This document shows, in pieces, positions 1,069 to 33,389 of a stretch of 37,054 nucleotides of DNA. The stretch is from a virus. The position numbers were made by a program, and so were the translations under genes. Under the pieces are notes generated by a model that searched no databases, was not told where the DNA came from, and worked only from the letters and a program-made list of their open reading frames with translations. The DNA lies in IMG/VR virus record IMGVR_UViG_3300022198_002861, positions 1-37,054 of that record; one strand, 5' to 3'. Every line of letters starts with the position of its first letter. Position 1 is the stretch's first letter.

Positions 1069-1617
1069 ATGACAGGTCCCCCAGGAGGAGGAGTTACTCC
1101 ACCACCATTAACACCGCAAGCGCCACCAGACGGATCTATTAGTATAGATACTACTCCAGTATTACCATCAGCCTTGCTATCCTATTTAAGCACTACAGCG
1201 CAAACAGCTTTGTTGTCAGCTTCTAATATTGGCACCGCAACTACTTCACAGATTAAAACTGCATTAGAAAGCATACAAAATTTAAGTAATTTAACAGCAT
1301 ATCAAATTGATGCTAGTGGATTAGATAGTTTAGCAGATGGGGCGACAAGCTCTGCTTTTACCGTTACGGATGTAGGCGATTCGTTATTTGTACGACTTGT
1401 TATCTTACTTGCTGAGTTTCAACCAACAAGCGGAGCAGAGATTGTTGTCAGCGATGGTACGATAGCTTATGAGATAAATGTACCTACAACTTTAAGCGAG
1501 AAAAGAATAGAATTTAACAATCTTGCCGCAGCGTTTGTTTCTAGTTTTACCGTAACAAATTCAACAGGTGCAGCTTTTCCTTCTTACGGCAATAGTATAG
1601 TGGTGGTACCGTTATAA
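1069..1617 (+). CDS. Putative virion protein of unknown function
   Basis: 182 residues. The start has a GGAGG site in the portal end, two bases after the portal stop. The first 25 residues are Pro/Gly-rich. The rest is Ser/Thr/Ala-rich with alternating hydrophobic residues, suggesting a small beta-rich domain (roughly residues 100-182). No enzyme motif is visible. Its place between portal and a large appendage gene suggests a structural or adaptor role. I do not recognise the family. Confidence 0.7.
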   Translation: MTGPPGGGVTPPPLTPQAPPDGSISIDTTPVLPSALLSYLSTTAQTALLSASNIGTATTSQIKTALESIQNLSNLTAYQIDASGLDSLADGATSSAFTVTDVGDSLFVRLVILLAEFQPTSGAEIVVSDGTIAYEINVPTTLSEKRIEFNNLAAAFVSSFTVTNSTGAAFPSYGNSIVVVPL

Positions 1618-1620
1618 GCT

Positions 1621-4600
1621 ATGGCTAATATTACCGTTTCAACAAGCAGCAATTATGACGCTACAGCGAATTTAGCGCTAAACCATAACGAGAATGTTAC
1701 CGTCACCTCTGGTGCCACACTAACAATCAACTCCGATACTCGTTACGCACAAAACGCAGCCGCTCCTCAAACCATCACCATTAGCGAAGGCTCAGTAATT
1801 GTAGACGGCACTGAAGTTTGGTGGGTTCCTTTTGATGCTTCCACAGGTAATGTTCCAGCACTAGATGCACAAGGAACGCTCAACGTTACAGTGGGCGGTG
1901 TTGATGTGGGCGAACTGCTGGGCGTGTGGGACGCTTATGCAGTGGCAAAACCGCTAGTAGCAGGCGTGGCAATGCCCGCAAGCGGCTACGTAAAGTTTCG
2001 CAGGAAAGTGGCAACGATTGCCGATAATGACGTGCTTACGTTTGGAAACGGAGCAACAGCCACAGTAGATTCAGCTACAGGTGGGCAACGTGGCTGGATT
2101 GATTTATGTGGCACAGCACTTTACACCGCCAACTTCTCCACTGGAGGAATATATTGCAACGCTCGAAGCCAGCTTAGAGTGCAGGGCGATTGGTTTGAGA
2201 TTGGCGAAACTACAGGTGTGGCAAATCAAGTGTTGCAGCATTACTTACCTATTTATTGTTCAGGCGTACAGATTGAAACAGCAGCAGGAAGCGGAGTTTA
2301 CGAGTGGTACGTTTCATTTCCATTTAACAACAATCCAAGCGCAACAGTTTCAACAAATCTATTTAACAGCACGTTTGGTAGATTGTTTACTTCAACTACC
2401 ACAGGTCAAATCACACTCGGATATAATTCCCAGTTCAATATCCCGCCTGCTGGCTGTAAAGTGCGAGTGCCTAATGTTTGTCTAACTACAGTGTTGGCAG
2501 GCTCATACGACACTTACGCAACAACTTTAGCCGACACGCAAACATGGCGATTGTTTGGTCAAGATTATGCCGATGTGGAGATTGACAAGCTGATTATCGG
2601 CGCAGGACGTTTCCATAGCCGCAACACAGCAAAGTATTACATCACCAACAGCACATTTATGAGCGGGTGCATGAGCTGGTACATGCAGCTCAATCCGTCA
2701 TCATCAAAAGATTGGAAGTTTGAAAATATTACGGTGGCTCCAGTTTCTGCAACCCAACAAAACGCCATGCTTAATGTGTATGGCGATAAGATTCGCATCA
2801 AAGATGTATTCTTTCCCGTGTCGTCAAGCTCTTTTCCTTATTTCTACTCATCGACAAATGTTGACATAGAAAACATAACGATCATTTCTTGGAATCTAAT
2901 TGGCTCTAGCAATACATCGCCAATCAATATCTCCAACTGCAAAGATGTGACAATAAAAAACCTGCGAGCTTATGCGCCAGGACAGCAGATGTTTACTTTG
3001 AATAATATCGAAAACATTGATGTTGATGATGTGGGAATTGTCAATATCGACATAGTAAACAGCGCATACACTGGTACTGGTATTGGCATGACCGGAACGG
3101 TCAGAAAGGCGCGCTTCAACGATTTCAAAGCCATTCTTGGAAAGATGGGCGGCAGCGGCTATGACTACATGGCAAATTTGTCGGGTGAGGAAATTATTTG
3201 GTCAAACTGGGGGTCGTTTAGTGTTCCGTATGACGTAAACAATACAACTTCTTATCGAAATAGAACATGCCCCCAATACGCTTGGAATAGCGGTTCTGTA
3301 AAAAAGCAAAGTCTATTCAATATCTGGCTGTCGTCGGTCACGGGAAGTGACCTTTATACGATGCAAAGCACTTCTACAGACATAATCTACAATTACTGCG
3401 GTCAAGTGCATACAGTCACGCCAGCGATAAGAAATATCAATCCGTTATTGCCAAATAGTAGAATCAGAAATGCGGTGGCAAATATCCAAAGTGGCACGGA
3501 ATACTTGCCATATCAGCATGTAGTCAATTCGCTCAATCAAACCACTTCACAGATTAGATTTGCGTTTTTCGTCTTTCCTGTAAGTGATATTAGATTTGCA
3601 GATTCGGTGGTGCAATCAGGCGCAGAGCGAGACGGAACAAATCTTTATCTTCCAACATTAGGTGATTATTATGAAATCACAACTGATGAAATCTTAGGCG
3701 TTACAGCTCTTACCACTACAACGATAACATCAACTGGCAGTTTGGATATTACTTACGATATCGACACAGGAACTGGTTTTACTGGGACGTACAAGACACT
3801 AAACAACACCAACCTCGCCGCTGAAACTGTATCAGCCGCAGGTTTTAGGCTTAAAGTGAAAGCAGAAGCCACAGCCACAGGAAACAATTACATTTCGCTT
3901 GCACTGATAAACGCAACTACCTCAACAGCAGATATTCAAGCTAACTACTATCCAATAGCGGAGCCAATACTAACCATTACAAACACGGAAGTGGGTAGCA
4001 CACTAGCGGCAATAAGAACCACAGATGGAAAGGTATTGTATTTAACAAACGCAGCGACAAGCTCCCAAGATTTGCGGCCAGGGTGGTCAGCGGACACTGG
4101 TATTGTTTTGCGTATAAGAAAAGCGGGATACGCTTCTTTTTCACTGCCATACACACTAACATACAAAAACAACTCGATTCCAATTGCGCAAGAGCTAAGC
4201 GCAATTCCAGCAAGCAATCCAGGAGCGTTAAGTATTACTGTTACAAATCACGGAGCCAGCCCTGTCACATGGAACGGTAAGACCTGGTCAATTACAATCA
4301 CAGCCACAGGGGGAGAAACGGCAGCGCAAATTGCAAACTTTATCAACTACAATTTAGCTAATAACTCTCGTAGTTTTGATTCTGCATTTTACAACATGCA
4401 ATGGCCCGAGATGGTTTTAGCGGTGGGCACAAATTATGAAACGGCAAGAGGTACGCTATACGGCTCCGCTGGCGCAGCGCTAAAGGGTGTTCGTGTTGTA
4501 GACGGCTCAGGCAACGAGGTGCCAGGTTTTGCTCGTATGCAGTCGGATGACGGAACGTATTATCAGCCAGCAGTTACCTCGACCATTACAGTCGGAAATT

Positions 4601-21914: not shown

Positions 21915-22249
21915 GGCCGCTTGTGCATCCTAATAGGCTTTTCTTCAGGATTAATCTCCCTTAGCCGCTCCCTTATAGTCCGCACTACGTCGTCACGCTC
22001 AAAAAGCATATTGCAGATATACACTAGGTTATACGGTCTAGGCGTATCTTCAAAGAAAAAGCGGTGCAGGTCCACCTGGAAGAACGCTGTTAGCCCTTGT
22101 GTGGGTAGGGAATAGTCGCAAATGGCTCTTTCAATAACAGCAAGCCACAAAGCCGTCTCTGGGCAATTTGGAGAGGAGGTTATTTCCATCTCGTAATCTA
22201 CTTCTGGTGTAACTTTAGAAAGTCTTCGAGAAACATAGTTACTAGCCAT
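21911..22249 (-). CDS. Conserved phage protein of unknown function
   Basis: 112 residues, last gene of the leftward operon. The pattern ALWLAVIERAICDY, then FFQVDLHRFFFEDTPRPYNLVYICNML, is the same as a widely spread small phage protein (WLAVI..AI.D......A+.FF......F..IC.+L) whose role is not known to me. It starts 52 bases inside the resolvase gene. No other good start is visible, because the next Met is residue 21. End is basic (MHKRP). Confidence 0.65.
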   Translation of the reverse strand: MASNYVSRRLSKVTPEVDYEMEITSSPNCPETALWLAVIERAICDYSLPTQGLTAFFQVDLHRFFFEDTPRPYNLVYICNMLFERDDVVRTIRERLREINPEEKPIRMHKRP

Positions 22250-22509
22250 GGCCTATTATTTTTCCTGTGGCAGACGATTGGTGTGTTGTCTCCGCAGTCT
22301 CTAGTAGCCTGGTCTATAGCCTTGTCTACGTTAAGATTTTGGACTCTTTTTACTTCGATGTGATATTGGCTCAATTCGGTGCAAACTACGTCCGAATCGC
22401 CAGCCTTGCCACAAAACTGCTGCGTGCGTCTAGCTGTGAAGCCGTTTTCTTTTAGCTTATTAGCAAGCTCTCTCTCGCCTGCTGCTCCTTTAGCTCTTGA
22501 GTTTGTCAT
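22198..22509 (-). CDS. PD-(D/E)XK nuclease, Holliday-junction resolvase-like
   Basis: 103 residues, start coupled to the preceding gene by TAATG. The core is typical of Hjc-like resolvases: RAKGAAGERELANKLKENGF (Glu12), GKAGDSDVVC (Asp38/Asp40), YHIEVKRV (Glu52-x-Lys54) and a conserved helix with DKAIDQATRD. These are the metal-binding and catalytic residues of the PD-(D/E)XK superfamily. It could resolve branched DNA before packaging, next to Bet and the ssDNA-binding-like protein. The size fits the family (100-150). Confidence 0.8.
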   Translation of the reverse strand: MTNSRAKGAAGERELANKLKENGFTARRTQQFCGKAGDSDVVCTELSQYHIEVKRVQNLNVDKAIDQATRDCGDNTPIVCHRKNNRPWLVTMFLEDFLKLHQK

Positions 22510-23114
22510 TAGTAAAATACCTTATCTGAGTTAGCTACTGACCAGCGGTTGCAATCCTCTGCTGACCAGATTGTGTCCAGTGTAGCATATTCCTTTGTTG
22601 CTGCGCTCGGCCTATTTCCGATAAAGAAGGCGTCTTTGAAAAGGATTCTGTTGGTAGGCAAAGCTGCAACTTGTCCGTTATCCAGCAGAATGACGTGTGC
22701 ACATTTGTTTTGATCGGGCTGGAGCAGGAAAGCAGACTCAGAATCAGAATCAGGCAACCAATCGACCGTAAACCAATAGGTGCCAGAAACTTTAGTTTTG
22801 TCTTTAAGGATTGCATCACATTGATAACCTTTAAGCATATCAAAGGTAGTTACTATGGGGCGATAACTGAAACAATCCCATAATTGAAGAAGTTCCAAAG
22901 AGTACTTAGAACAGTCGCCGTCAATATCATCATGCCAAAGCCAATGCAGAGGGATATGACGAAAGTGAGCGCCTGATTCAAACAGCACATGAAACTGTAG
23001 CGCTCTTGCTTTGTATGATTGTATTGCAAATGCGTAGCCATGTTCAAACCCTTCTTTGCCGTTTAAGTTCTTGTTTTCTATCCAGACTTTTAGGGGTGGA
23101 ATATTTGCGTTCAT
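22509..23114 (-). CDS. Hypothetical protein
   Basis: 201 residues with GGAGG four bases before the start, which overlaps the previous stop (ATGA). It has a mixed alpha/beta composition with many aromatic residues. Recognisable local motifs are LQFHVLFESGAHFRHIPLHW and FLLQPDQNKCAHVILLDNGQ. There are no membrane segments or signal. I do not recognise a domain. It may be specific to phages of this type. Confidence 0.7.
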   Translation of the reverse strand: MNANIPPLKVWIENKNLNGKEGFEHGYAFAIQSYKARALQFHVLFESGAHFRHIPLHWLWHDDIDGDCSKYSLELLQLWDCFSYRPIVTTFDMLKGYQCDAILKDKTKVSGTYWFTVDWLPDSDSESAFLLQPDQNKCAHVILLDNGQVAALPTNRILFKDAFFIGNRPSAATKEYATLDTIWSAEDCNRWSVANSDKVFY

Positions 23115-23710
23115 TCTTCCTCCTTCGGTGGCTCAGGTAGCGGTTGCCAGTGAGTGACATTAAGATGTTCAGTGCCTAGCGTATTAGTCCATTGTCCTTT
23201 GCCGTAATTGCCATAATAGGCCAGCTCGTAACCGTCAATGCACATAGCTAATACCATTGGCGTACTATCCGGCAACCTATCCTTTACGCTAATCCAACCA
23301 TCTGAATTATTCAAAGAGTTCATCACCTTGTCGGCATCAGCAAGCTGATCCTGTAGCTCCTGTATTCTAGCCTCAGCCTCTTCCAGCGCTGCGTGTGCGT
23401 GTTCTTGTGCGGCTTGGTAGCCAGCGAGGAAATCATCCTTACACATGCACCAAACGATAAACTCTGGCCCTTGCTCTGGACACCGCCAGTTTGCGTGTTC
23501 CTCTGCTAACTCTTCATAAGCCTCGTGCCTAGCCTCAGCCTCTTCTAGTGCTGCGTGAGCATGCTCTTGTGCTGCTTTATAGCCAGCGAGGTAACAGCTT
23601 TTCATTTGCTTTTTAACGCAATATTCCAAGCTCTTTACAAATTGCTGGGGCATCTCATAGAGTCTTTCAGCGCATTTCTCCGCTGCGAATTCTTCAGGTG
23701 TTTTACTCAT
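23111..23710 (-). CDS. Paralogue A of the MSKTPEE array, with DUF551 tail
   Basis: 199 residues from the ATG at 23710. The longer frame from 23746 lies inside the neighbour and lacks a site. Begins MSKTPEEFAAEKCAERLYEM. Two copies of the array module (YLAGYKAAQEHAHAALEEAEA and FLAGYQAAQEHAHAALEEAEA) flank a Cys-rich spacer (RCPEQGPEFIVWCMCKDD). The C-terminal 65 residues have WISVKDRLPDSTPMVLA and VTHWQPLPEPPKEEE, the DUF551 pattern common in phage proteins. Translation starts within the GAG/AAG-rich end of the upstream gene by an 8-base ATGAGTAA overlap. Function unknown. Confidence 0.75.
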   Translation of the reverse strand: MSKTPEEFAAEKCAERLYEMPQQFVKSLEYCVKKQMKSCYLAGYKAAQEHAHAALEEAEARHEAYEELAEEHANWRCPEQGPEFIVWCMCKDDFLAGYQAAQEHAHAALEEAEARIQELQDQLADADKVMNSLNNSDGWISVKDRLPDSTPMVLAMCIDGYELAYYGNYGKGQWTNTLGTEHLNVTHWQPLPEPPKEEE

Positions 23711-23948
23711 TTTCCTTCTCCTCCTCTTCTGACTCCCAGGTGACATCGGCTAGTCGCTCGCGCAAAGATGCAATTCTTGCCTCAGCCTCCTCTAATGCTG
23801 CGTGCGCGTGTTCCTGTGCTGCTCTGTAGCCAGCTCTATAACAATCCATACCAACATAGTATGAAACGTCATTTCGAGCTTTAAGCGAAACGTACAGAAT
23901 TGCTTGGCAATCAAGTTCCTCCGCCAATTCTTCAGGTGTCTTATTCAT
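23703..23948 (-). CDS. Paralogue B of the MSKTPEE array
   Basis: 81 residues, MNKTPEELAEELDCQAILYV. One module (YRAGYRAAQEHAHAALEEAEA) then ASLRERLADVTWESEEEEKENE, which also ends paralogue C with one change. The acidic tail codes for the next gene's ribosome site (GGAGGAGAAGG). The stop overlaps the next start by eight bases. Appears a shortened copy of C. Cytoplasmic and helical. Function unknown. Confidence 0.75.
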   Translation of the reverse strand: MNKTPEELAEELDCQAILYVSLKARNDVSYYVGMDCYRAGYRAAQEHAHAALEEAEARIASLRERLADVTWESEEEEKENE

Positions 23949-24375
23949 TTTCCTTCTCCTCCTCTTCTGACTCCCAAGTAATATCAGCTAGTCGCTCGCG
24001 CAAAGATGCAATTTTAGCCTTAGCCTCTTCTAGCTCTGCGTGAGCGTGCTCTTGTGCGTCTTTATAGCCTTCGTTATAACCAGCAATAAAACTATTCTCT
24101 GTCCAGAGTCGAACTCCAGCATCATCGCTTTTATTTTTGGCGTGTTGCGCTGCTTTTACTTGCACCGGATGTCCGTGGTTAAAACACTCAGTTTCGATAA
24201 TGTGCTCTGCTACTGCATCGTGTATTTTCATAGCTGAGTCAAATCCATTGGAATGTCCCGCCTTAAATCCAGCGAGAAAAGATTGATTAACCACACCATA
24301 ACAATAGGCTTGTGTTGCTATGTCAATGTTCTCTTTAGCCCATTCTTTGCATAATTCTTCAGGTGTCTTACTCAT
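23941..24375 (-). CDS. Paralogue C of the MSKTPEE array
   Basis: 144 residues from ATG 24375 with GGAG ten bases upstream. The longer frame to 24480 is rejected. Begins MSKTPEELCKEWAKENIDIA. Contains a degenerate module (FLAGFKAGHSNGF) and a second one (FIAGYNEGYKDAQEHAHAEL), separated by a His/Cys-containing stretch. It ends LRERLADITWESEEEEKENE, nearly identical to B. The stop overlaps B's start by eight bases. The family probably arose by duplication. Function unknown. Confidence 0.75.
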   Translation of the reverse strand: MSKTPEELCKEWAKENIDIATQAYCYGVVNQSFLAGFKAGHSNGFDSAMKIHDAVAEHIIETECFNHGHPVQVKAAQHAKNKSDDAGVRLWTENSFIAGYNEGYKDAQEHAHAELEEAKAKIASLRERLADITWESEEEEKENE

Positions 24376-24649
24376 CTTGTGGAATACTCCTAACTTTATG
24401 CCAGTTGCAATTGTCGGAAACTCCCTTAGGGTCATAAGCTCGCTCATTAAACCAAAGCGTTCCATCATCACACAGCGCAATTAAATCTTGGGTAGTTCCG
24501 GTAATTTGTATAATTTTACGGCCATTAATTAAAGCCTGTGCTGCTTTGTAACCAGCGAGGAAGCAACTACGAGCGAGAGGATGTTCGCTTTTATAAATAG
24601 CAAGGTTATTAATATAAATTTGTGCTAATTCTTCAGGTGTTTTACTCAT
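24368..24649 (-). CDS. Paralogue D of the MSKTPEE array
   Basis: 93 residues from ATG 24649. The longer frame to 24691 is in the acidic gene. Begins MSKTPEELAQIYINNLAI with one module copy (CFLAGYKAAQALING). The rest is a different C-terminal domain (DLIALCDDGTLWFNERAYD and NWHKVRSIPQDE), a DDG..W pattern with a closing W..V+.IP that recurs in small phage proteins. Thus the shared N-terminus is joined to unrelated C-terminal parts. Function unknown. Overlaps C by eight bases. Confidence 0.75.
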   Translation of the reverse strand: MSKTPEELAQIYINNLAIYKSEHPLARSCFLAGYKAAQALINGRKIIQITGTTQDLIALCDDGTLWFNERAYDPKGVSDNCNWHKVRSIPQDE

Positions 24650-24797
24650 CTTCTTCCTCCTCTTCTTCCTCAGCCTCTTCTTCAACCTCAAAATCTACGT
24701 CATCATCATCAGGAGCAAGGTAATCATCCTCAGCCCTGGCGTAATCCTCAGCTGTTTGCCTATCTTCTTCTATCCTCATATCTCTGTAATCTTTCAT
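24642..24797 (-). CDS. Very acidic small protein
   Basis: 51 residues from ATG 24797, which has AGGAG four bases upstream. Frames starting earlier lack a site. More than half of the residues are Asp or Glu, ending in a nearly pure Glu run (EEEAEEEEEEEDE). The first 25 residues are mixed (MKDYRDMRIEEDRQTAEDYA). The charge is that of DNA-mimic or chaperone-like proteins, but no known anti-restriction sequence is recognised. The Glu codons (GAG/GAA) also supply the ribosome site for paralogue D, and the stop overlaps its start by eight bases. Confidence 0.6.
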   Translation of the reverse strand: MKDYRDMRIEEDRQTAEDYARAEDDYLAPDDDDVDFEVEEEAEEEEEEEDE

Positions 24798-30807: not shown

Positions 30808-31368
30808 CTATCGCAACGGCATGATAATAGCCATGAGGTTGTCGCAAGTTATATAGACACCAGGGTAACGTAGATCTAGATCACTATTGCGGCTTAAGGT
30901 CTGCTGATGGTCAGCGATTAAGGCATCAATGAAATAATCTAAGTTAATCTTTACACTATAAGGCTCAAATACTTCACAAGCGAGAAAGTTAAATTCGAAA
31001 CTTAGCTCCGGAGTAGTAAAATTAATACGCAAGTTGTTCGCGGCGAAAGTAAATAGGATGCTTGCCTCTTGGCCTCTTGGTATAAGAGTAGCTAGCTTCC
31101 TAAGCTTGGCTATCTCTTTCTTGCTAAAACGAAAGCTTGCTATAGCTACTGTAGTTTTGGGTAGTACGGCATCAATGCATGGCGCTGAGTCAATAGTTAA
31201 GTCACTATTGAGATAGTGAGGTGTAGCAGTCGGCAAGTCATTAGCTAAGTGCAGTCTGTGTCCGTCGGTACCGCATAATCTATTGGCTTCCCTGAAGGCT
31301 GATATCAGGTTATAGCGACCTTTGTCTGTACTTACCGCGCGATTGCAATATTCAGTGTAATTTATCAT
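30808..31368 (-). CDS. DnaN-like sliding clamp fragment (putative)
   Basis: 186 residues from ATG 31368. The longer frame to 31392 has no better site. CGTDGHRLHLANDLP matches the ATDGHRLA signature of the bacterial beta clamp. SVKINLDYFIDAL matches the NxxYLLDAL helix, and the extreme C-terminus DNLMAIIMPLR matches the VVMPMRL end. This is about half a normal DnaN (about 370), so it holds only one and a half to two domains. A ring would need a different stoichiometry. Next to a J-domain and initiator gene. It may tether host polymerase to phage DNA. Homology is inferred from motifs. Confidence 0.6.
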   Translation of the reverse strand: MINYTEYCNRAVSTDKGRYNLISAFREANRLCGTDGHRLHLANDLPTATPHYLNSDLTIDSAPCIDAVLPKTTVAIASFRFSKKEIAKLRKLATLIPRGQEASILFTFAANNLRINFTTPELSFEFNFLACEVFEPYSVKINLDYFIDALIADHQQTLSRNSDLDLRYPGVYITCDNLMAIIMPLR

Positions 31369-31405: not shown

Positions 31406-31456
31406 CTAGTGATCAATCGGTAGCTAGTAGTTAGCTAGCTACCTGTTGAGCACTAG
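31406..31456 (-). terminator. Long hairpin after the J-domain gene
   Basis: 22-base arms 31406-31427 and 31435-31456 pair with three mismatches over a 7-base loop. The inner part GGTAGCTAG/CTAGCTACC resembles the hairpin after the clamp-like gene. It overlaps the J-domain stop codon (31453-31455). No clear U run. Confidence 0.6.
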
Positions 31457-31944
31457 TGTATGGCCTTGCGCTTATCACTATCTTTAAATTCCTTATAACC
31501 ATACCTCATGGCTAAATGAGATAAGCCATATCGACTAGGTCGACCGTAGTACTTCGTTGCGGTGTAGTACCAACAAAGCCTATTTGGGTTCCATTTAAAG
31601 CCATTAGCTTTTAAGAGCTCTTTATATGGTTTGGTGTCACCTGTTACCCATAACCATGTCCCTATCAGCGCAACATTCACCCCGGGAAGCCTTGCACCGA
31701 CAATAAAAGCTATCTTATCTATTACAGATTGCTCTAAATTCTCATCATAATTATAGCGGTGATCCTTACCTGACTCACCTTTACTAGTGCTACCGTGTAG
31801 CCGCTTTAAGGCTTCGTGGTACTGATAGTTAATCGCTTGCATGGTAGCAGTCTCACCGCCTAAATCGGGATGGTGCTTAAAAGCTAAACGCTTATACTCG
31901 CTCTTAACGTGTTCAACACTAAATAAGTCATCAAAGTATCTCAT
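31453..31944 (-). CDS. J-domain protein with C-terminal Trp-rich domain
   Basis: 163 residues, first gene of the second leftward operon. N-terminal J domain (about 1-55): YFDDLFSVEHVKSEYKRLAFKHHPDLGG with the HPD tripeptide needed to stimulate DnaK, then ATMQAINYQYHEALKRL. After a Ser/Gly linker comes a second domain (about 95-130) with LIGTWLWVTGDTKPYKELLKANGFKWNPNRLCWYY. This is the W.tG.T.P+..LK..GF+W....CWY pattern found in other phage J-proteins. Like lambda P/DnaJ dependence, it may help remodel a replication complex. CGGAG site. Confidence 0.85.
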   Translation of the reverse strand: MRYFDDLFSVEHVKSEYKRLAFKHHPDLGGETATMQAINYQYHEALKRLHGSTSKGESGKDHRYNYDENLEQSVIDKIAFIVGARLPGVNVALIGTWLWVTGDTKPYKELLKANGFKWNPNRLCWYYTATKYYGRPSRYGLSHLAMRYGYKEFKDSDKRKAIH

Positions 31945-32669: not shown

Positions 32670-33389
32670 ATGAGCGATAGCGATTTAAAACAGGACTCGG
32701 ATACAGAGGCTGACCCAATTTTAAAAAATCCCGAATTACCCAAGCCGTATTACCAGGACGATTATGTAACGCTGTACCACGCTGATTGCAGGGAGGTGTT
32801 GCCGTTATTAGAGCCTGTAGATTTAGTGCTTACTGACCCGCCTTATGGGATAGGGGAAGCTAGAGATAAAAGCAAAAGTCGAAATAGAGGAATAAGACTA
32901 GCCGTACAAAAAGATTACGGCAATTTTGACTGGGACGATAAGCCAATAGACCAAGACTTAATCAATCAGCTAATTACTCAACCAGCAATAATCTTTGGGG
33001 GTAATTACTATACTATGCCACCTTCAGCTTGTTGGTTAGTTTGGGACAAACATCAAACAGGGGATTTTGCTGATTGTGAATTAGCCTGGACTAATCTGCC
33101 TGGTGCTGTAAGGCGTATTAATTACCTTTGGAATGGGATGATTAAACAACGTCCAGAGCAAAGATGGCACCCTACACAAAAGCCATTGGACGTTATGAAA
33201 TGGTGTATTACTCAAGCTGATACTAAACTTAAAAACAAAATAACTACTATTTTAGACCCGTTTGCTGGTTCAGGAACTACGCTTAGGGCGGCTAAAGATA
33301 TGAGCCGTAAGGCTATAGGTATTGAGCGAGAAGAACAGTATTGCGAGGTAGCAGCAAAGCGATTGCGTCAGGAGGTATTAGGTTTATGA
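32670..33389 (+). CDS. DNA methyltransferase, beta-class (N6-A or N4-C)
   Basis: 239 residues. Motif IV TDPPYGIG (residues 55-62) comes before motif I-like ILDPFAGSGTTLRAA (about 194-208) with HPTQKPLDVMKW between, the order of beta-class enzymes (N6_N4_Mtase). DPPY indicates adenine-N6 or cytosine-N4 methylation using S-adenosylmethionine. No recognition domain allows prediction of the site. Probably protects phage DNA from host restriction. The weak ribosome site makes the start uncertain. The stop overlaps the next start (ATGA). Confidence 0.85.
   Translation: MSDSDLKQDSDTEADPILKNPELPKPYYQDDYVTLYHADCREVLPLLEPVDLVLTDPPYGIGEARDKSKSRNRGIRLAVQKDYGNFDWDDKPIDQDLINQLITQPAIIFGGNYYTMPPSACWLVWDKHQTGDFADCELAWTNLPGAVRRINYLWNGMIKQRPEQRWHPTQKPLDVMKWCITQADTKLKNKITTILDPFAGSGTTLRAAKDMSRKAIGIEREEQYCEVAAKRLRQEVLGL

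Follow-up and report, generated by a model that had tools for sequence, protein, structure and literature searches.

Standard sliding clamps are rings built from repeated modules, four per protomer in the trimeric PCNA and T4 gp45 (PMC4858162, PMC11139829) and six per protomer in bacterial DnaN (TIGR00663), whose E. coli representative, the beta clamp, has 366 aa. For the latter, PMC11139829 lists both the residues of the pocket that receives clamp-binding motifs (CBM) and those of the dimer interface, and a beta clamp lacking its five C-terminal residues (the MPMRL end) is reported to lose both loading and Pol III replication (PMC3022782). Phage proteins that interfere with the host clamp system are exemplified by Gp168 of Staphylococcus phage Twort, which, according to PMC11139829, blocks loading by occupying the DNA channel of beta and not by imitating the pocket. 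Much shorter clamp-like proteins are annotated in several phages, among them AH2 gp20 (209 aa; PMC3483164) and R6L gene 2 (151 aa; PMC5463345), in contrast with the 346 aa of phiAxp-1 gp63 (PMC4764938); PMC7472734 contributes a figure label only. In the literature searched, which mostly left aside subscription journals, we recognized no functional or structural study of these half-size clamps.

Half-Size Clamps Are Common in Phages

By searching IMG/VR DNA for the pattern TDGHR ... MP, with about 145 residues between the two elements, we found at least 119 such stretches. Among 80 listed loci, all except L109 and L113 contain an ORF of the sought form, mostly of 190–240 aa; these 78 ORFs were reduced to 36 sequences at 85% identity, 35 of which constitute alignment A2. 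Using two half-size clamps as tblastn queries, matches were obtained in 222 and 244 phage records, in which the genes are labelled either "DNA polymerase III beta subunit" or "RusA-like resolvase". BFVD also contains many half-size clamp entries (163–215 aa), and a further member is encoded by the E. coli K-12 phage TheodorHerzl (bas14_0007). The ten family members that we tested all match phrog_3007 over most of their length (E 3.6e-18 to 2.6e-34), as well as the DnaN-type phrog_947.

A RusA resolvase identity was rejected for these proteins, because the members so labelled match DnaN in Pfam, NCBIfam, and PDB, with no RusA family listed. In Bcep781, gp15 bears the RusA label and is described, in a note to the same gene, as a "DNA Pol III b subunit fragment", and the Rus protein of this phage is annotated separately as gp22. 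The family phrog_3007 is itself named "RusA-like Holliday junction resolvase" despite its DnaN-like members (e.g., NC_004333.2 10433–11014), a misnomer that is found in many phage records.

The genomic company of half-size clamps varies. They adjoin a DNA polymerase gene in BcepC6B and in Acinetobacter phage 4316; in Serratia phage Eta, a primase and a helicase gene are annotated, and the whole record gave no match for Pol A, Pol B, or Pol III alpha. Across 37 records (the one under study here, 31 of the 78 IMG/VR records, taken among the longer ones and many of them possibly fragments, and five named phages), we found a Pol A match in 16 and none for Pol B or Pol III alpha; DnaN domain I had no match in any of the 37. 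Half-size clamps are thus frequent in phages whether or not a Pol A gene is present, and the rarity implied by the sequence-only reading, which had singled out such a clamp in a phage devoid of DNA polymerase, does not hold.

The A2 profile retrieved 55 distinct PDB sequences, all of at least 366 aa. On the top E. coli entry it covers residues 139–290 and, separately, 315–367, the tail of the former stretch reusing profile positions of the latter. A structure model of one member, L143 (pLDDT 90.7, pTM 0.87), could be aligned to residues 127–366 of E. coli beta over 175 of its 195 residues (Z 15–17, rmsd ~2.5 Å); as it was built from an alignment of half-size clamps only, it represents this family and not the protein described below. 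Given the profile coverage and this model alignment, we assign the common half-size clamps to domain II plus the second half of domain III (IIIb), in a beta-like layout without domain I and IIIa. Because the L143 model keeps domain II and IIIb arranged as in E. coli beta, the pocket should form. The pocket residues listed in PMC11139829 all fall within the part kept by the common family, and the interface residues listed there all belong to domain I or IIIa. In the 36 half-size clamps, the E. coli residue occupies 73% of cells at the ten pocket positions that are free of the search pattern, versus 16% at 157 other positions, which shows continued selection on the pocket, not a new property, since ordinary DnaN conserves the pocket too.

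A Divergent Clamp-Like Gene in an IMG/VR Phage

The window, that is, the whole stretch of DNA that was analysed (37,054 nucleotides), corresponds to the entire IMG/VR record IMGVR_UViG_3300022198_002861. The clamp-like gene lies on its minus strand at 30808–31368 (ATG at 31368, stop codon 30808–30810), and is corroborated by a relative in contig L002, by purifying selection, and by Foldseek matches to beta clamps. The translation has 186 residues, about half the length of E. coli beta, as the sequence-only reading had stated, and the three clamp signatures that this reading pointed out are all present in it. TDGHRL (residues 34–39; 31252–31269, minus strand) aligns with the beta pocket residues T172–L177 (pocket list of PMC11139829); NLDYFIDAL (residues 142–150; 30919–30945, minus strand) includes N142 and Y145, the equivalents of pocket residues N320 and Y323; the terminal MPLR (residues 183–186; 30811–30822, minus strand) is the counterpart of pocket residues M362–R365. 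Upstream of TDGHRL, R18 and L21 align with R152 and L155 of E. coli beta.

Considered by sequence similarity alone, the clamp identity of this protein is marginal. It matches Pfam PF02768 (domain III) only marginally (E=0.14), phrog_947, a DNA polymerase processivity factor family, with E=1.1e-4 over residues 65–186, and NCBIfam PRK14946 and TIGR00663 with E=4e-4 and E=0.019, respectively, the TIGR00663 score of 13.9 bits being far under the curated cut-off of 137.65 bits. The phrog_947 match is weakened by the fact that the L002 protein matched no PHROG family at E<=1, phrog_3007 included; phrog_3007 was likewise not listed for the window protein at E<=1, and a PDB sequence search with the latter gave no match. 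Its score with the HMM of 36 half-size clamps was 24.8 bits (the highest among 2000 shuffles was 7.0) but leans on TDGHRL, because the member sequences were chosen for that motif: with TDGHRL masked it fell to 2.9 bits, which 1 of 1000 shuffles matched, and with both TDGHRL and MPLR masked to -0.4 bits, matched by 44 of 1000.

The L002 contig provides a relative across the whole protein, with 85% identity. Between the two genes dN is 0.096 and dS is saturated at 2.2; over the first 152 aligned codons, the proteins are 92% identical, yet 70% of synonymous sites have changed. The reading frame is open in both copies, and the indels are in frame. The gene is under strong purifying selection. L002 was the sole close relative recovered by IMG/VR scans with the window protein and with the two-sequence alignment; a tblastn search of INPHARED with the window protein gave no match at E<=1, and GTDB gave none for the clamp or for the terminase. 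The gene was also absent, by phmmer, motif, and HMM, from 80 TerL-related loci, many of them short and 27 of them spanning the interval, so that among the 28 loci of this phage group that do span it, only L002 has the gene and 27 lack it. Its surroundings, a variable cluster of small genes on the minus strand, are flanked by an initiator-like gene and an XRE-like gene. This scattered occurrence fits an accessory role.

An AlphaFold2 model of the window protein was computed from an alignment containing only this protein and its L002 relative, and has a pLDDT of 42; as no other clamp was included, its fold matches were not steered by known clamps. The sequence-only reading had taken a model unlike the clamp fold as grounds for abandoning its clamp assignment; such a model was not obtained. 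In spite of the low confidence of the model, all 50 PDB matches listed by Foldseek are bacterial beta clamps (best E 5e-3 with a probability of 1.00; none at E<=1e-3). With VIA-align, residues 72–186 were superposed on residues ~250–365 of E. coli beta (Z 5.2–5.7, rmsd 3.2–3.7 Å), with the caution that a Z below 8 may indicate only a common arrangement. The titles identify 49 of the 50 VIA-align rows as sliding clamps or processivity factors; a de novo design ranks first, and five mycobacterial rows place the model on domain II, not III. In BFVD, the model had no match at E<=1e-3; of the 50 rows listed, 18 by manual count bear the name of a clamp, PCNA, or a processivity factor, the others being without a functional name. 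The model matches suggest a better structural case for a clamp than the model confidence implies, and we consider a clamp ancestry of the window protein likely.

A Probable Second Pattern of Module Loss

Residues 1–45 (31234–31368, minus strand) correspond to the first half of clamp domain II (IIa), according to the HMM alignment of residues 4–73 and to the alignment with E. coli beta. They are followed by PCIDAVLPK (residues 63–71; 31156–31182, minus strand), the probable counterpart of PDYRRVLPK (242–250) in E. coli beta, that is, of the linker into domain III; this pairing comes from the global alignment and the register of the fold alignment, and the MAFFT alignment with E. coli beta places the segment otherwise. 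Residues 72–186 (30811–31155, minus strand) are probably domain III (IIIa and IIIb), as indicated by the fold alignment and by the phrog_947 and NCBIfam alignments, the pairwise test described below being indecisive. The model and the fold alignment give one complete domain within residues 72–186, including a basic helix (82–98, +5), and no confident model for residues 1–70. Four library models place residues 65–152 at the start of domain III, and most rows of the fold alignment agree; L210 and L217 display a similar shortcut, from TDGHRLH to the FPDW segment. For these reasons, we favor the composition IIa plus whole domain III, and the window protein probably results from a deletion unlike that of the common family, whose motifs RYYLNGV and FPDWRRV it lacks.

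Pairwise alignment failed to decide which middle module, IIb or IIIa, is present, because its z values conflict. IIa + III scored 5.2 versus 4.0 for II + IIIb with the window protein (2.4 versus 3.0 for the C-terminal part alone), 4.0 versus 3.8 with its L002 relative (1.6 versus 3.1 for the C-terminal part), 4.7 versus 5.2 with L210, and 7.5 versus 4.8 with L217; in the control, all 36 common half-size clamps preferred II + IIIb (IIa-IIb-IIIb). A further alignment, A3, intended for remodelling the window protein, was dropped owing to inconsistencies in its middle region. Under either composition, the protein likely consists of three clamp modules. The clamp domains are reduced even more in the 205-aa product of the L217 ORF at 1189–1806 (plus strand), which contains TDGHRLH, FPDWRRV, and, at its C-terminus, IIMGMRD.

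In the MAFFT register, 12 of the 18 E. coli beta pocket residues are identical in the window protein (R152, L155, T172, G174, H175, R176, L177, N320, Y323, M362, P363, and R365); pairing PCIDAVLPK with PDYRRVLPK as in the global alignment adds P242 and V247, which brings the number to 14 of 18. Two changes are conservative (V360I and M364L), and R246 and V344 are not kept.

Compared with known systems, the window protein shares with the phrog_3007 clamps (Bcep781 gp15, Serratia phage Eta Eta_0010, TheodorHerzl bas14_0007, and the similarly sized AH2 gp20; ~190–240 aa) a TDGHRL motif near residue 40, an MPxR motif near the C-terminus, the pocket residues, and the absence of domain I from the record, but differs from them in its missing family match and motifs and in the probable loss of IIb rather than IIIa. 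With bacterial DnaN it has in common the C-terminal fold, as seen in a low-confidence model, and 12–14 of 18 pocket residues; its half length, its lack of domain I, and its score well below the TIGR00663 cut-off set it apart. It resembles PCNA and T4 gp45 in subunit size and in its probable clamp fold, with likely three modules in place of their four. Half-size clamps were already known from annotation; what is new is a divergent protein with a probable second deletion pattern.

Replication Genes of the Window Phage

The first and last bases of the window are 6 bp apart in the near-identical contig L006; the genome is practically complete, with 6 bp missing, and the absence of a polymerase gene is therefore not an edge effect. 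In agreement with the sequence-only reading, which had seen no polymerase, helicase, or primase, the record contains no match for PF00476 (Pol A), PF07733 (Pol III alpha), or PF00136 (Pol B), nor for the two helicase families searched, DnaB_C and ResIII, and no primase was found among the genes compared with Pfam or PHROGs. Domain I of DnaN (PF00712) had no match anywhere in the record. Genes were found for an annealing protein of the RecT type (PF03837, E 2.2e-29) and for a small protein that weakly resembles the replication initiators of phages (phrog_270, E 0.005; phrog_391, "O-like", E 0.01). Phage lambda relies on the host replisome, and by analogy the window phage would do the same. No CBM stood out above chance in the 56 gene models of the phage, which makes a host partner of the clamp-like protein likelier than a phage one.

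Several neighbouring or distant genes deserve mention. The gene directly upstream of the clamp-like one (31453–31944, minus strand) has a product that resembles J-domain proteins and contains an HHPD motif (PF00226, E 1.4e-3, below the cut-off; phrog_15863, of unknown function, E 1.4e-28); within this phage group, it is also present in L008, L017, and L024. Speculatively, a phage J-domain encoded beside a clamp-like protein could target host DnaK during replication. An N4/N6 DNA methyltransferase gene (32670–33389, plus strand; PF01555, E 3.2e-22), present in only some related loci, adjoins the small terminase gene. The ORF at 22198–22509 (minus strand) is a candidate PDDEXK-type phage endonuclease or Hjc-like resolvase (PF24608, E 5e-6, just short of the cut-off), and the region 23111–24691 (minus strand) encodes neighbouring small proteins with common repeats (GYxAAQEHAHAxLEEA, MSKTPEE-like starts) that resemble a local duplication.

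Possible Function of the Window Protein

We tentatively favor, with slightly less than even confidence, a role of the window protein as a clamp mimic whose pocket binds the clamp partners of the host, rather than as a processivity ring. The phage gene product would be a reduced DnaN-derived protein of three modules that has kept the CBM pocket and lost domain I. Acting as a soluble mimic in the infected cell, it would bind through this pocket the CBM peptides of host clamp partners, putatively the clamp-loader delta subunit, Pol III alpha, repair or translesion polymerases, MutL, or Hda, and the partners thus diverted or restrained would be of benefit to a phage that depends on the host replisome. 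In favor of this reading, we count the pocket residues kept in the window protein and across the 36 half-size clamps, the beta-like arrangement of the L143 model, the lack of a domain I match in all 37 records, the accessory occurrence of the gene, and the selection acting on it. The non-ring state, the binding of peptides by the pocket, and the relevant host partner are what we infer here. Because the pocket residues come from IIa, the IIb–III linker, and IIIb, IIa and IIIb should be spatial neighbours, and under either composition the three modules would curve as an arc about the pocket. Should intradomain and interdomain contacts alternate along a ring, a three-module protomer would be unable to close it symmetrically, whereas protomers with four (PCNA) or six (DnaN) modules can. 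The clamp-loader delta subunit is reported to bind a monomeric beta variant ~50 times more tightly than the dimer (PMC11139829), so that a pocket outside a ring would be a good competitor. Like Gp168, the window protein is proposed to interfere with the host clamp system, but would do so by a different route. Several observations speak against such a mimic: the pocket is also kept in ordinary DnaN, so its retention may be mere descent; the window protein lacks RYYLNGV, FPDWRRV, and R246, and its model is of low confidence; the basic helix 82–98 suits a contact with DNA, and the polymerase neighbours of its relatives suit a role in processivity.

The sequence-only reading had offered two functions, a mini-clamp redirecting host Pol III to phage DNA and a decoy for host factors. 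The decoy would fit better than the redirecting ring because the partner-binding pocket appears to be kept; for the ring, we found nothing in support beyond the fold, domain I being absent and the modules apparently numbering three, versus four or six per standard protomer. It is in our opinion unlikely that the protein is a mini sliding clamp, self-assembling (e.g., as a tetramer with 12 modules) into a ring or partial ring that would be loaded on phage DNA and tether host Pol III or another polymerase. The probable clamp fold, the basic helix, the polymerase genes next to relatives in BcepC6B and Acinetobacter phage 4316, and the Pol A match in 16 of the 37 half-clamp or window records are consistent with this possibility, but the common family lacks, in addition to domain I, the IIIa region of known dimer contacts, three modules would misfit the alternating contacts of a symmetric ring, and none of the polymerase families searched occurs in the window phage, which belongs to a group where 27 of 28 related loci do without the gene. 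A different use of the dimer contacts, in which domain III of the window protein would replace the second protomer by pairing with domain I of host DnaN, thereby blocking or altering loading, appears quite improbable: the module that contacts domain I in beta would be available if the IIa + III composition holds, but, when the fold alignment is read by eye without gaps, the window protein has A93 and T94 where beta has the interface residues I272 and L273, and such a poison or partner subunit could not be formed by the common half-size clamps, which are without IIIa.

The high divergence of the protein (15–24% identity to other half-size clamps) and its variable accessory location would also suit a clamp fold turned to another use, such as DNA binding, a structural part, or a ligand for a defence or repressor protein, the pocket then being simply part of the fold core; this we regard as improbable, although less so than the poison subunit, as solvent-facing pocket residues (the equivalents of H175 and R365) are kept while most other positions change. 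Finally, half size and a single close relative might be expected of a decaying, functionless fragment of a captured dnaN, but with its frame open in both copies, its in-frame indels, and a low dN against a saturated dS, this explanation is largely refuted and has very little chance of being correct.

Extending the clamp mimic to the whole family, it is possible, if on the whole doubtful, that phages reduced the clamp to a "portable CBM pocket" that forms no ring, by at least two module deletions (IIIa in most; IIb in the window protein, L210, and L217); it would act in trans as a decoy or adaptor that seizes host clamp partners without encircling DNA. Whichever reading holds, the RusA label needs correction in annotation pipelines. 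If rings do form, a three-module clamp would represent a new ring architecture. If the pocket is their purpose, half-size clamps would provide a minimal scaffold for CBM-binding studies, the occurrence of a "clamp" in phages without polymerase would be explained, and these proteins would compete naturally with the central hub of replication and repair in bacteria.
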